From assembly GCA_028285495.1 (NCBI GenBank), contig JANQPB010000006.1, positions 124,001-188,000 of the forward strand: a stretch of 64,000 nt of DNA, given 5' to 3'. The position numbers were made by a program, and so were the translations under genes. The number at the start of each line of letters is the position of its first letter. The stretch's first letter is position 1. The stretch comes from Acidimicrobiales bacterium (lineage in GTDB: Bacteria; Actinomycetota; Acidimicrobiia; Acidimicrobiales; SZUA-35). Under the pieces are notes generated by a model. It did no database searches and had not been told where the DNA came from. It saw only the letters and a list, made by a program, of their open reading frames with translations. Shown one piece after another: positions 20,956 to 28,539 of this stretch.

Positions 20956-21163
20956 CGGATCATGGTGGCCGACGGCTTCGACGAGCTCCAACCCGGGCAA
21001 TGACAAGCATGGCTTCGTCCGGAGCCGCCGCATGGATGCGTGACTTTCGACCATCAGATTGCTGCATCCGATCCCACGTCCGTCTCGGAGTAGCTGGCAA
21101 TCCCCCTACACCGACGGCGGTCCATGTGGATCCGCCTCCGACCCAACGAAAGGCGGCCCTCCG

Positions 21164-21973
21164 ATGCGCAAGGCGCTTCAGTTTGTCGCGGCCATCACCC
21201 TGGCCATCACCCTGCCCATGCTCTTCCTGGCTCCGGCCGATGCCCAGGATGGTGCCCGGATCCACCTGATCCACGGCATCCCCGGCGTCGACGTCGACGT
21301 CGAGGCCGGCGGCGAGAACGTCTTCGAGGGCTTCTCCTTCGGTGACACCCAGGACCTGTCCGGCCTCGCCGGCGCCACCCTCGAAGGCGTCCGGGTCAAG
21401 GCCGCCGGGACCGACACCGTGGCCATCGACGCCGGCGACATCGAGCTGCCGGCCAGCGGCAACTTCACCGTGATCGCCCACCTCGGCGCCGACGGCACCC
21501 CGACGCTCGGCGTGTTCGAGAACGACGTCTCGACCATCGCCGCCGGTGAGGGTCGCCTGACCGTCCGTCACACCGCCGCCGCTCCCGAGGTCGACATCCT
21601 GGCCAACGGCGAGGCCGCCTTCAGCGGCGTGGCCAACGGCGCCGGTGGTACCGTCGACCTGCCCGCCGGCACCATCTCGGCCTCGGTCGTGCCCGCCGGT
21701 GAGACCGAGCCCGTCGTGATCGGCCCGGCCGATCTGCCCATCGCCGAGGGTCAGCACCTGCTGGTCTACGCCGTCGGCTCGCTCGACGACGACACCCTGA
21801 CCGTGCTCACCGAGACGATCGACGGGCTGCACAGCAACCCGGACCGCATCGACACCGGCAACAGCGTGCCCCAGACCGGCTCGAACGCCGCTCTGATGCT
21901 GCTGGTGGCCGGCGTGGCCGCCGCCGCTGGCGCCGGCACCCTGGTCGTCGCTCGCAACCGGGCCCAGGCCTGA
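21164..21973 (+). CDS. Surface DUF4397 protein with sortase signal
   Basis: 269 residues from ATG 21164 (MRKALQFVAAITLAITLPML); the track start at 21059 is too long. A cleavable signal peptide ends near APADAQD. Two DUF4397 beta-sandwich repeats follow, starting at ARIHLIHGIPGVDVDVEAGG and at GRLTVRHTAAAPEVDILANG. The C-terminus is a cell-wall sorting signal: VPQTG, a hydrophobic helix (AALMLLVAGVAAAAGAGTLVV) and RNRAQA. The next gene is a sortase, 13 bp away, so this protein is very probably its substrate. The function of DUF4397 on the surface is unknown. AAAGG lies about 10 nt before the start. Confidence 0.9.
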   Translation: MRKALQFVAAITLAITLPMLFLAPADAQDGARIHLIHGIPGVDVDVEAGGENVFEGFSFGDTQDLSGLAGATLEGVRVKAAGTDTVAIDAGDIELPASGNFTVIAHLGADGTPTLGVFENDVSTIAAGEGRLTVRHTAAAPEVDILANGEAAFSGVANGAGGTVDLPAGTISASVVPAGETEPVVIGPADLPIAEGQHLLVYAVGSLDDDTLTVLTETIDGLHSNPDRIDTGNSVPQTGSNAALMLLVAGVAAAAGAGTLVVARNRAQA

Positions 21974-21986
21974 TCAACAGCGGACC

Positions 21987-22745
21987 GTGAGCCTCTCTCT
22001 CCCTCTCGGCTCCGTGTTCCGCTCCCGACCGACCCGACTGGTGGCACTGGCTCTCGCCGTGCTGCTGGTCGGGTCGGCGTGTTCTTCGGCGACGACCGAC
22101 CCGTCGACCGCCGCCGAGGCCGGAGCCGATCAGGACGCCGCCACCACCGCCGAGCAGGCACCAGCGACGGATCCGGCCGATGACGGGCCGGCGGCCGGGC
22201 CGGACTCCGGCCAGGCGACGCCCGGCTCGGACCTCTCGGAGCTGGTCTCCGAGCTGCCGCCCGCCCCGGTCGGCTTCCCCATGGCCGACGACGGCCCCCA
22301 GCCGACCCGGCTGACCATCGAGTCGCTCGGCATCGACCGGGCCCCGGTCATCAGCGTCGGGGTCGAGACCGACGGGGCCATGGAGGTCCCACCGGCCGAC
22401 CAGGTCGGCTGGTACCGGTACAGCCCCCTGCCGGGCCAGGCCGGCTCGTCGATCCTCGCCGCCCACATCGCCTTCGACGGCGAGAACGGCGTCTTCGTCC
22501 GCCTCGCCGACGTCGAGCTCGGTGCGGTTGTCGAGGTGACCGACGAGGACGGCCTCACCCGGTCCTACCGGGTCGAGACCGTGGACCGCTATGCCAAGGA
22601 GCAGCTGCCCGAGGACATCGTCTTCGCCCGCTCGGGCGAGGAACGGCTCGTGCTCGTCACCTGCGGCGGACGGTTCGATCCGGAGCTGCGCAGCTACGAC
22701 GACAACGTCGTGGTCGTGGCCACCCCGCTCGACCAGGCCAGCTGA
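21987..22745 (+). CDS. Class F-type sortase with lipoprotein-like signal
   Basis: 252 residues. N-terminal signal ends with a lipobox VGSAC, then a 65-residue Ala/Asp/Pro linker, then a sortase domain from PTRLTIESLGIDRAPV. The catalytic set is visible: His in LAAHIAF (about 159), Cys in LVLVTCGG (about 226) and Arg in FDPELRSYDDN (about 235). Sortases cleave the sorting motif of exported substrates and link them to the wall. The neighbour with VPQTG is the natural substrate. Lipid anchoring of a sortase (if the Cys is used) would fix it outside the membrane. GTG start with no clear RBS. Confidence 0.9.
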   Translation: MSLSLPLGSVFRSRPTRLVALALAVLLVGSACSSATTDPSTAAEAGADQDAATTAEQAPATDPADDGPAAGPDSGQATPGSDLSELVSELPPAPVGFPMADDGPQPTRLTIESLGIDRAPVISVGVETDGAMEVPPADQVGWYRYSPLPGQAGSSILAAHIAFDGENGVFVRLADVELGAVVEVTDEDGLTRSYRVETVDRYAKEQLPEDIVFARSGEERLVLVTCGGRFDPELRSYDDNVVVVATPLDQAS

Positions 22746-22760
22746 GCCGGACCGACACGT

Positions 22761-22855
22761 CGTCGTCGGTCAGGCCGAAGGTCCTTCGTCGTCGGTCAGG
22801 CCGAAGGTCCGTCGTCGTCGGTCAGGCCGAAGGTCCTTCGTCGTCGGTCAGGCCG
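22761..22855. repeat. 26-bp tandem repeat array between convergent genes
   Basis: Three full units CGTCGTCGGTCAGGCCGAAGG(TCCTT) at 22761-22786, 22787-22812 and 22813-22838 plus a 17-bp partial unit. One base differs (CCGT for CCTT in copy 2). Each unit holds CGAAGGTCCTTCG, a near palindrome. The last partial unit contains the stop codon of the minus-strand methyltransferase gene. It may act as a bidirectional terminator region or simply mark slippage. Confidence 0.85.
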
Positions 22856-23681
22856 GGCGCCCGCTGCTGGCCCTGGCCTGACCGACGGCGTAGAACGCCA
22901 CGGCGGCGGCCGAGCCGACGTTGATCGAGTCGACGAGCCCCGCCATCGGGATCCGGACCCGGCGGTCGGCGGCGGCCAGCGTGTCGGCGGTCAGGCCGGG
23001 CCCCTCGGCCCCGAGCAGGAGCGCCACCCGGTCGTCCGGTCCGTAACGAAGCTCGTCGATCGGTGCCGCCGATGGGTCCGGGGTCAGCGCCACCACCTCG
23101 AAGCCGGCGTCCCGCAGCGGCGCCAGTCCGTCGGGGAGTCGCTCCAATCGGGCGTACGGGGTGGCGAACGCCTCGCCCATCGAGACCCGCCCGCAGCGGC
23201 GGTACAGCGGATCGCAGCAGGTGGGATCGAGGTAGAACGAGTCGATCCCGAGGCCGACGGCGCAACGGAGGATCACCCCGAGGTTGGTCGGGTTGTTGAT
23301 GGCCTCCATGACCGCGACCGTGGTCGAGCCGATCAGCGCCTCGTCGATGCTCGGCAGTGGGCGGCGGGCGAAGCAGGCGAGGCACCCCCGATGGAGGTGG
23401 TAGCCGGTGATCCGCTGCAGCACCTCCGGCCCGGCCGCGTAGACCGGGATCTCGGGGTCGACCACATCGGGGAGCGGCCTGGTCCGCTTGCCATCGATCA
23501 GGACGGCCGTCAGCCGGTAGCCGGCGCGGAGCGCCCGCTCGACGACGATGTCGCCCTCGGCCACGAACACGCCAGCCATGTCGCCGCCGGGCAGCTCCCG
23601 GCGACGACGCAGGACGTGGTCACGCAGACCCTGGAACACGGCGATGCGCGGATCGTCGGGGTCGTCGACCTCGATCCTCAT
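22848..23681 (-). CDS. TrmH/SpoU-family RNA 2'-O-methyltransferase
   Basis: 277 residues. The SPOUT trefoil-knot motifs are all present: motif 1 NNPTNLGVILRCAVGLG with the catalytic Arg, motif 2 ALLLGAEGPGL and motif 3 RIPMAGLVDSINVGSAAAVAFY. The N-terminal part (FVAEGDIVVERALRAGYRLTAVL) is the substrate-binding domain seen in rRNA-targeting members. Methylates a ribose 2'-OH in tRNA or rRNA; the target base is unknown. It lies 46 bp downstream of the SelW-like gene on the same strand. The stop codon is inside the 26-bp repeat array, so array length changes could alter its C-terminus. Confidence 0.92.
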   Translation of the reverse strand: MRIEVDDPDDPRIAVFQGLRDHVLRRRRELPGGDMAGVFVAEGDIVVERALRAGYRLTAVLIDGKRTRPLPDVVDPEIPVYAAGPEVLQRITGYHLHRGCLACFARRPLPSIDEALIGSTTVAVMEAINNPTNLGVILRCAVGLGIDSFYLDPTCCDPLYRRCGRVSMGEAFATPYARLERLPDGLAPLRDAGFEVVALTPDPSAAPIDELRYGPDDRVALLLGAEGPGLTADTLAAADRRVRIPMAGLVDSINVGSAAAVAFYAVGQARASSGRPA

Positions 23682-23727: not shown

Positions 23728-23994
23728 TCAGGTGCCGTAGCGCCGGACGTCGGGGCCGACCAACTCGCTGAAGAGCTTCAACACCTCGCCATCGTCGGCG
23801 TGGCGACCGGTGTCGTGCTTGGAGTAGAGCAGCTCGCCGTCGACCGTCACGTCGAAGACGCCCTTCGAGCCCATGACGAGCCTCAGATCGGCGATGACGT
23901 GCTGGTAGTTGCTGAGCAGATCGTCGACCGCGCGCACGGCGCGGGCTGAGTAGTCTCAGGGGACGCAGTAGGTGATGTCGACGTGGTGGGCCAT
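23728..23994 (-). CDS. SelW/SelT/SelH (Rdx) family selenoprotein, in-frame TGA = Sec
   Basis: 88 residues if TGA at 23958-23956 is read as selenocysteine. The track splits it: MAHHVDITYCVP ends the 24825-23956 ORF and VRAVDDLLSNYQHV starts the 23937-23728 ORF, both in the same frame. The joined protein reads ITYCVP-U-DYSARAVRAVDDL, with Cys10-x-x-Sec13 exactly where Rdx proteins carry CxxC or CxxU, then GVFDVTVDGELLYSKHDTGRHADDGEV, the family hallmark. A thioredoxin-like redox role is known for the family; the partner is unknown. ATG 23994 has TATCCT 6 nt upstream (leaderless). Alternative: a Cys TGC to TGA mutation or sequencing error. No Sec machinery genes are in the window. Confidence 0.85.
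23928..23944 (-). promoter_or_regulatory. Candidate bacterial SECIS hairpin
   Basis: On the mRNA strand the 17 nt CCGCGC-CGTGC-GCGCGG form a perfect 6-bp GC stem with a 5-nt loop. The stem starts 11 nt after the TGA and the loop begins at nucleotide 18 after it, with G as its second base. This fits the known bacterial SECIS rule (apical loop about 16-37 nt from UGA, G among the first two loop bases). In GC-rich DNA short hairpins are common, so this supports but does not prove Sec insertion. Confidence 0.5.
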
Positions 23995-24000
23995 GACCCC

Positions 24001-24006
24001 AGGATA
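24001..24006 (-). promoter_or_regulatory. -10 hexamer TATCCT of leaderless selenoprotein gene
   Basis: TATCCT lies 6 nt before ATG 23994, the spacing used by leaderless actinobacterial transcripts. It fixes the start codon upstream of the TGA and so argues that both ORF pieces are one gene. Confidence 0.6.
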
Positions 24007-24093: not shown

Positions 24094-24528
24094 ATGAAAG
24101 CGACCGTCGTCTACGAGAGCATGACCGGCAACACCGCCACCGCCGGCCACCTGATCGCCGCCGGGCTGACGGCCGCCGGGGTCGAGGCGGTGGCGTGCCC
24201 GATCACGCAGGTCGACCTCCAGAGCCTGTCCGAGTCGGAGCTCGTCGTGGTCGGCAGCTGGACCGACGGGTTCTTCTTCTTCGGCCAGCGGCCGGGCCGT
24301 GGCGCCCGTCTGGCCCAACTGCCCGTGATCGACGGCAAGAAGGCGGCGGTGTTCTGCACCTACGCCGTCAATGCCGGCAAGACGCTGCCGAAGTTGAGCC
24401 GGATCGTGACCCGCCGTGGCGGCGAGGTCATCGGTGGGTTCGCCATCCACCGCAAGCGCATGGAGGAGGAGGCGGCGGAATTCGTCGATCGCCTGCTCGG
24501 CGCCCTCGACCTGCCGATCGACGCCTGA
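24094..24528 (+). CDS. Flavodoxin-like protein
   Basis: 144 residues from ATG 24094 (MKATVVYESMTGNTATAGHLI). The phosphate-binding loop of flavodoxins, (T/S)xTGNT, is visible as ESMTGNT. The later FMN-contacting region reads VVGSWTDGFFFFGQRP, and AVFCTYAVNAGKTLPKLS is typical of flavodoxin-domain proteins rather than long-chain electron carriers. The family is an FMN electron carrier or a small oxidoreductase. TAAGGT (24080-24085) lies 8 nt before the ATG and suggests a nearly leaderless transcript. Divergent from the selenoprotein gene with a 99-bp gap, so a shared redox regulon is possible but unproven. Confidence 0.85.
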   Translation: MKATVVYESMTGNTATAGHLIAAGLTAAGVEAVACPITQVDLQSLSESELVVVGSWTDGFFFFGQRPGRGARLAQLPVIDGKKAAVFCTYAVNAGKTLPKLSRIVTRRGGEVIGGFAIHRKRMEEEAAEFVDRLLGALDLPIDA

Positions 24529-27170: not shown

Positions 27171-27479
27171 ATGTTGCGACAATGGCTCGTACCGGTGCTT
27201 GCCGGGCTCCTGCTGCTGGTCGGCTGTGCCGACCGGCCGTCGCCCGACGCCCTGGCCGATGCCATCGCCAACGCCGCCGCCGCCGACCCGACGGTCGACC
27301 TGACGCCCGAGCAGGCGTCGTGCATTGCCAACCGCCTGCTCGACAGCGGCCTCTCCGACACGACCCTCGAGGGCCTGACCGAGGACTTCGACAACCCCGA
27401 GGTGCTCTCGGCCGAGGTCGACCAGGTCGAGCCGACGGTGGCCGAGGCGGCCGCCGCCTGCGTCGTCGCCGATGAGTGA
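27171..27479 (+). CDS. Small putative lipoprotein
   Basis: 102 residues from ATG 27171 with AAGGAG upstream. The signal peptide LVPVLAGLLLLVGC ends in a lipobox (LVGC), so the mature protein should be lipid-anchored outside the membrane. The mature part is acidic with two Cys (QASCIANRL and AAACVVADE) that could form a disulphide. The helical pattern resembles small actinobacterial DUF lipoproteins, but I do not recognise the family. Its stop overlaps the psuG start by 8 bp (ATGAGTGA). Confidence 0.8.
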   Translation: MLRQWLVPVLAGLLLLVGCADRPSPDALADAIANAAAADPTVDLTPEQASCIANRLLDSGLSDTTLEGLTEDFDNPEVLSAEVDQVEPTVAEAAAACVVADE

Positions 27480-28539
27480 CACCGGCCCGGGCCCGACACA
27501 CAGCCCGGCCTCAGGCCGGGGCCCGGGATACAGCCCGGCCTCAGGCCGGGGCCCGGGATACAGCCCGGCCTCAGGCCGGGGCCCGAGATACAGCCCGGCC
27601 TCAGGCCGGGGCCCGAGATACAGCCCGGCCTCAGGCCGGGGCCCGAGATACAGCCAGGCCGTCGCCGAGGCCACGAGCGCCGGGACCCCCGTCGTCGCCC
27701 TCGAGACCACGATCTTCTCCGAGCTGGGTCTGCCCGGCCCGTCGAACCGCGAGGCCCTCGACCGGGTCACGGCGGCCATCGAGGCCGGCGGGGCGGTACC
27801 GGCCCTGACCGCCGTGCTCGACGGGCAGCTCCGCATCGGGCTCGACGTGGCCGAGCACGCTCGCATCTGCGGGCCGGCCCGCAAGGTGGCGGCTCGCGAT
27901 CTGCCCGTGGCCATGGCCGGAGGCTGGGACTACGGGGCCACGACCGTGTCGGCGTCGGTCACCCTGGCCGCCGCCGCCGGGATCCCGGTGTTCGCCACCG
28001 GCGGCATCGGCGGCGTCCACCGGGGCTGGGCCACGACCGGCGACGTCAGCGCCGACCTCCCGGCCCTGGCCCGCCACCCGGTGATCACCGTGACCGCCGG
28101 GGCCAAGGTCTTCCTCGACCTGGCGGCCACCGTCGAGTACCTCGAGACGGCCTCGGTCCCGGTGCTCGGCTGGCGCTGCGATCGCTTCCCCGCCTTCCAT
28201 GCCCCCACCTCCGATGTGGCGCTCACCACCAGAGTCGAGTCGGCCGAGGAGGTTGCGGGCATCGCCCGGGCCCACTGGGCGATCGGCGGCGGCGGGATCG
28301 TCGTCGCCGCCCCGGTGCCCGAGGCCGACGCCATCCCGCTCGACGAGCTCACCGACCTGGTCGACCGGGCGCTGGCCGAGGTCGGCGAGGTCTCGGGACC
28401 GGCGGTCACCCCCGAGGTCCTCGGCCGGCTCGGCGCGCTCAGCGGCGGCCGGACCGTCGCCGCCAACCTGGCCCTGGCCGAGCACAACGCAGCCGTGGCG
28501 GCCGAGATCGCCGGGGCGCTGGCCTCCGTCGGCCCGTGA
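27472..28539 (+). CDS. psuG: Pseudouridine-5'-phosphate glycosidase with N-terminal repeat extension
   Basis: 355 residues, about 50 longer than usual. The catalytic domain begins at SQAVAEATSAGTPVVALETTIFSELGLPGPSN, followed by GATTVSASVTLAAAAGIPVFATGGIGGVHRG and PVLGWRCDRFPAF, all diagnostic for the PsuG/IndA family. It reversibly splits pseudouridine 5'-phosphate into uracil and ribose 5-phosphate; no kinase PsuK is adjacent. Before it are five copies of a 10-residue unit (YSPASGRGP[GR]) encoded by 30-bp tandem repeats. No start codon exists between the repeats and the domain, so the repeats are translated or the start lies within them. Overlaps the lipoprotein and the next gene. Confidence 0.9.
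   Translation: MSDTGPGPTHSPASGRGPGYSPASGRGPGYSPASGRGPRYSPASGRGPRYSPASGRGPRYSQAVAEATSAGTPVVALETTIFSELGLPGPSNREALDRVTAAIEAGGAVPALTAVLDGQLRIGLDVAEHARICGPARKVAARDLPVAMAGGWDYGATTVSASVTLAAAAGIPVFATGGIGGVHRGWATTGDVSADLPALARHPVITVTAGAKVFLDLAATVEYLETASVPVLGWRCDRFPAFHAPTSDVALTTRVESAEEVAGIARAHWAIGGGGIVVAAPVPEADAIPLDELTDLVDRALAEVGEVSGPAVTPEVLGRLGALSGGRTVAANLALAEHNAAVAAEIAGALASVGP
27501..27650 (+). repeat. Five 30-bp tandem repeats inside psuG
   Basis: Unit CAGCCCGGCCTCAGGCCGGGGCCCGRGATA, five copies in exact 30-bp register from 27501 to 27650 and a partial unit after. Each holds the palindrome CCCGGCCT-C-AGGCCGGG (8-bp arms). Only G/A at one position and the last bases vary, indicating recent expansion. 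The unit is a multiple of three, so copy change keeps the frame. Confidence 0.95.

Follow-up and report, generated by a model that had tools for sequence, protein, structure and literature searches.

The window analysed here, a stretch of 64,000 nucleotides from an Acidimicrobiales bacterium, carries on its minus strand a SelW-like (Rdx) selenoprotein gene of 88 codons (23731..23994), in which codon 13 is a TGA (23958-23956) and a further TGA (23728-23730) is the stop. Read from 23994 to 23728 with TGA translated as U, this strand gives MAHHVDITYCVP-TGA-DYSARAVRAVDDLLSNYQHVIADLRLVMGSKGVFDVTVDGELLYSKHDTGRHADDGEVLKLFSELVGPDVRRYGT-TGA, a joined product of 88 residues from the ATG at 23994, and the internal TGA falls within the motif CVPU. 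From the conservation of this TGA in the class, we predict that the codon (23956..23958, minus strand), which occupies the second motif position of CxxU, is read as selenocysteine. The open reading frame list made with translation table 11 gives the family part only as a 69-residue piece starting from a GTG after the TGA (23728-23937), in keeping with the preliminary description, which had expected ORF callers to miss the gene or to start after the TGA. The upstream frame stays open back to 24825; conservation begins only from the ATG at 23994, and the homologues align from this same ATG. It had also been proposed that two minus-strand pieces in one frame are joined through the TGA, and both the translation and the conservation among homologues bear this out: since the residues on both sides of the TGA are conserved jointly, with more than 40 distinct homologues having a TGA at the same codon, a chance joining of two pieces is excluded.

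The downstream neighbour encodes a SpoU-type RNA 2'-O-methyltransferase (22848..23681, minus strand; PF00588), which is not part of the system, and a flavodoxin-domain protein is encoded divergently (24094..24528, plus strand; PF00258). The methyltransferase gene directly follows the Rdx gene only in the window and in three other loci (L085, L088 and L093), and on account of this confined arrangement we claim no functional link with it; the flavodoxin-domain gene adjoins the Rdx gene in L085 and L088, a linkage kept in few relatives. As gene order is kept in few relatives, the context names no partner for the SelW-like protein. Elsewhere in the window, at 21155-22745 (plus strand), a gene whose DUF4397 product bears a VPQTG cell-wall anchor lies directly upstream of a sortase gene, and the two products are likely a sortase and its substrate. 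The opening part of an IndA/PsuG-like gene (27472-28539) includes a 30-bp tandem repeat (27484-27660; 5.9 copies, 95% match), read in frame as PASGRGP(G/R)YS repeats.

To place the joined protein in a family, we compared it with Rdx (SelT/W/H) profiles, a check that the preliminary description had suggested, and both the Pfam Rdx model PF10262 (63 bits against a cut-off of 22.6, E=3.1e-17) and the NCBIfam SelT/W/H model TIGR02174 (44.1 bits against 34.2) were matched above their cut-offs. The best-scoring NCBIfam model, NF041051 (SelTWH_Campy, SelT/SelW/SelH family (seleno)protein), aligned over nearly its full length with 73.9 bits, which is below its equivalog cut-off of 88, and membership in that equivalog was rejected. 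On these profile scores we regard the assignment to the Rdx (SelT/SelW/SelH) family as secure, outside the narrow Campylobacter-type equivalog. Among 47 aligned homologues, the invariant columns are Cys10, Sec13, Y15, V20, G45, S58 and K59, which include both positions of the CxxU motif (CVPU, residues 10-13) that follows the first strand.

We then examined the predicted structure. An AlphaFold model built with the 47-row alignment (pLDDT 96.7) has the thioredoxin-like SelW fold, with its elements in the order strand-helix-strand-strand-strand-helix. The top structural matches of this model in the PDB are all SelW-related (2fa8, 2obk, 2oka and 3dex, TM-score about 0.85, with 0.85 for 2fa8), followed by MIEN1 and mouse SelW, and the same set of structures was recovered by profile. 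SelW-related structures (2fa8, 2obk, 3dex and 2p0g) share the fold at TM-scores of about 0.8-0.9 with 18-32% identity; the CxxC of 2fa8 aligns with the CxxU found here, although 2fa8, with Cys at the Sec position, needs no recoding. Mammalian selenoprotein W (mouse SelW, 2npb) belongs to the same family by profile (E=5e-5), is distant in sequence, and relies on a eukaryotic SECIS in the 3' UTR. The position of CxxU within a thioredoxin-like SelW fold points to thiol/selenol redox chemistry. In the available portions of PMC1088965 and PMC13188914, the redox role of bacterial SelW-like proteins is presented as inferred and not demonstrated in bacteria, and our literature search found no mechanism for bacterial SelW function.

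To assess how widely the TGA is kept, we surveyed 198 genomes of the class Acidimicrobiia and found an Rdx gene in 77, of which 75 have one TGA within the gene. The two others are an uninterrupted form (G004) and a fragment at a contig end (G152). In every TGA locus that we read, the TGA stands at the second position of CxxU with the protein conserved on either side, and among the homologues read Cys replaces it in three (L021, L095 and L097), so that the in-frame UGA aligns with the Cys or Sec of homologues, as the preliminary description had supposed for this family position. In G004, the sole full-length cysteine form of the class survey, the codon is TGC, and no selA match was found in that genome. 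A tRNA-Sec scoring over the cut-off is present in 73 of the 75 TGA genomes vs 62 of the 123 others (Fisher p about 1e-13, a value inflated by shared ancestry); the two TGA genomes without one (G032 and G104) both carry selA, and the missing tRNAs are probably gaps or divergent tRNAs. The TGA-bearing Rdx gene of G032 (L061, 3863-4129, minus strand) combines a poor hairpin with the presence of selA and with no confident tRNA-Sec found in the genome; it may be that the tRNA-Sec has diverged or that the gene is decaying. The named relatives are metagenome-assembled genomes labelled Acidimicrobiaceae, Acidimicrobiales or Acidimicrobiia (54-80% identity), plus one labelled Anaerolineae (56%). On the contig of this last genome (L092, 3888-4163, plus strand), the Rdx gene is of the Acidimicrobiia type at 56% identity, with a TGA and six hairpin pairs, a case of horizontal transfer or mis-binning. 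Outside the class, Actinomycetota show both TGA-bearing and uninterrupted Rdx forms. By this comparison of genes, the survey shows the predicted Sec-type SelW to be the usual form of the Rdx gene across Acidimicrobiia.

We searched the 6.75-Mb assembly of the organism itself (45 contigs, 98.8% complete) for selA, selB, selD and tRNA-Sec, as had been recommended, and found all four. The tRNA-Sec has the anticodon TCA and scores 64.8 bits, where the gathering score is 47; selA (404 bits) and selB (272 bits) both exceed their cut-offs and overlap in their reading frames on contig C8, and selD scores 353 bits. Absence of selB and tRNA-Sec, which the preliminary description had named as speaking against a selenoprotein, is thus not what the assembly holds. 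Near-cut-off tRNA-Sec matches in the same genome were rejected as ordinary tRNAs, for instance that on C25, which ARAGORN types as tRNA-Gly. The selD frame (L019, G000:C34, 625-2565, minus strand) itself contains an in-frame TGA (FSHGAGUACK) and is predicted to encode a selenoprotein; we take this site to be the position at which selD proteins carry Cys or Sec.

Downstream of the internal TGA, a bSECIS hairpin is predicted at 23928..23944 (minus strand), with a 6-bp stem (23944-23939 / 23933-23928) and a 5-base loop, CGUGC (23938-23934). The hairpin begins 11 bases past the TGA, which puts 17 nt between UGA and loop, has a G at loop position 2 followed by a U, and has an energy of -10.3 kcal/mol. 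The bSECIS model set out in the available text of PMC13188914 calls for a stem of 4-16 bp, a loop of 3-9 nt, a distance of 16-37 nt from the UGA, an energy of at most -7.5 kcal/mol and a G within the first two positions of the loop, with G or U frequently coming next, and the window hairpin lies within all of these bounds as given there.

Homologues of the Acidimicrobiia type can be aligned without gaps in a single register, in which six pairs form the stem and five bases the loop. To separate conservation of the hairpin from that of the protein, we redrew codons from the same genes with the protein kept (2,000 trials): all six pairs are formed in 34 of 41 distinct homologues, against a mean of 2.9 and a maximum of 9 under this synonymous resampling (L032, for which the motif pick fell on a spurious upstream CxxC, was excluded from the hairpin statistics). 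A second set of 47 sequences, which overlaps the first, has 94.3% of its cells paired, and both partners have changed in five of the six pairs; its covariation score of 0.387 exceeds the 0.248 of shuffles and the values for slid registers, which reach at most 0.216. The fifth pair, for example, changes from G-C to A-U in L082-L084, where the protein at the same time goes from Ala to Thr. The window sequence taken alone reaches six pairs in about 7% of synonymous redraws, so the strength of the case rests on the comparison. Taken in isolation, the six-pair hairpin of many homologues does not reach -7.5 kcal/mol, and longer surrounding stems often lower the energy; for the window's 45-base stretch, the minimum free energy fold favours this GC-rich hairpin in a shifted register, and one TGA-bearing homologue (L061 of G032) has a poor hairpin. 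Judged from aligned sequences, the predicted hairpin is conserved beyond the demands of the protein, by compensatory changes.

The preliminary description had guessed, from one sequence, a leaderless ATG at 23994 with the -10 element TATCCT (24001..24006, minus strand), six bases before the ATG. We compared the upstream regions of 24 close homologues, and this guess gained support: TAnnnT lies 6-8 bases before the ATG in 16 of the 24, against a mean of 0.6 and a maximum of 4 in shuffled upstream sequences (2,000 trials), and at other offsets it occurs in 0-4 of the 24. A Shine-Dalgarno-like stretch is found in 5 of the 24, instead of or besides TAnnnT. Nearly all homologues have a start codon, mostly ATG, at a distance of 10-16 codons upstream of the TGA. 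For much of the subfamily, this upstream pattern supports a transcription start that coincides with the ATG or directly adjoins it. Counted from the AUG, the UGA takes up bases 37-39, and the bSECIS is complete by base 67. We consider it somewhat more probable than its opposite that this subfamily inserts selenocysteine on a leaderless mRNA starting at AUG, in which case SelB-dependent recoding and an initiation that uses no Shine-Dalgarno sequence would both fall within the first 70 bases.

Three other accounts of the internal TGA were weighed. A sequencing or assembly error for TGC or TGT, or decay of a Cys-type Rdx gene into a pseudogene, could be entertained given the existence of Cys-form Rdx genes in L021, L095 and L097 and of uninterrupted forms in several Actinomycetota outside the class. 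The same TGA in independent genomes excludes a base-call error or a pseudogene: 75 Acidimicrobiia genomes carry it inside the gene, which leaves no room for the TGC or TGT that the preliminary description had allowed for on resequencing. Frame and residues are moreover conserved past the TGA, the hairpin is kept beyond what the protein demands, and we regard this account as extremely improbable. It is just as hard to credit that the real gene is the 69-residue ORF from the GTG at 23937 and that the piece upstream of it arose by chance, even though this ORF is what a mechanical caller reports. Its product would be without the first strand and without CxxU, by which fold and family are defined. 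The stretch preceding the TGA is conserved as well, Cys10 being invariant, and nearly all homologues place their start codon before the TGA, at the distance given above, with the conserved TAnnnT just before it.

An in-frame UGA cannot by itself reveal the inserted residue, and the UGA might therefore be read as another amino acid, through a general change of code or through tryptophan readthrough. We hold this to be very unlikely. The stop codon of the gene is TGA, which also terminates 16 of 25 close homologues (TAA or TAG in the rest), so UGA is a normal stop and a general reassignment is excluded. The genome has the full Sec machinery, and those homologues read that lack the TGA carry Cys, none of them Trp. 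Decoding of the internal UGA as selenocysteine, to judge from the sequences compared, is almost certainly what takes place, and we are highly confident that the gene genuinely encodes a selenoprotein of the SelW-like (Rdx) family, its UGA being one that would be read through a SelB-bound hairpin.

In the mechanism that we propose, the mRNA would probably begin at or adjoining the ATG and the ribosome would reach the UGA at codon 13, where the hairpin 11 bases on would bind SelB, leading to delivery of selenocysteinyl-tRNA-Sec and keeping the release factor from acting; translation would end at the gene's terminal UGA. The product would be an 88-residue protein of thioredoxin-like fold with CVPU as its redox centre, most likely a thiol/selenol oxidoreductase that forms a transient selenenyl-sulfide between Cys10 and Sec13.

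Bacterial SelW-like (SELENOW-like) selenoproteins of PF10262 are treated in the available portions of four papers (PMC1088965, PMC1794560, PMC2398784 and PMC13188914). Their description goes back to 2005 or earlier, they rank with the most frequent selenoproteins of marine bacteria, and recent reviews, in the text available, give SelW-like as a predicted family. The novelty implied by the preliminary description was to this extent overstated. As those portions present them, these proteins share with the gene described here the family, the CxxU motif, the Sec position, a bSECIS directly after the UGA, a single small domain and an inferred redox role; the present gene differs in lineage and sequence subfamily only, being of an Acidimicrobiia type (YCVPU-[DN]Y...YQHVI...PGEVL.LF). 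The same portions do not name the class Acidimicrobiia for SelW-like selenoproteins. Among the open-licence papers searched, we found almost nothing on Acidimicrobiia and selenocysteine, with one text naming both, and for this reason the class-wide survey given here may be unreported.

That an actinobacterium of the Acidimicrobiia adds a new member to a known bacterial selenoprotein family is well supported. The gene has been rescued correctly where a standard ORF caller would truncate it, the covarying hairpin provides a lineage-specific bSECIS alignment for Acidimicrobiia, and with the conserved TAnnnT before the ATG the leaderless translation of a selenoprotein becomes testable.
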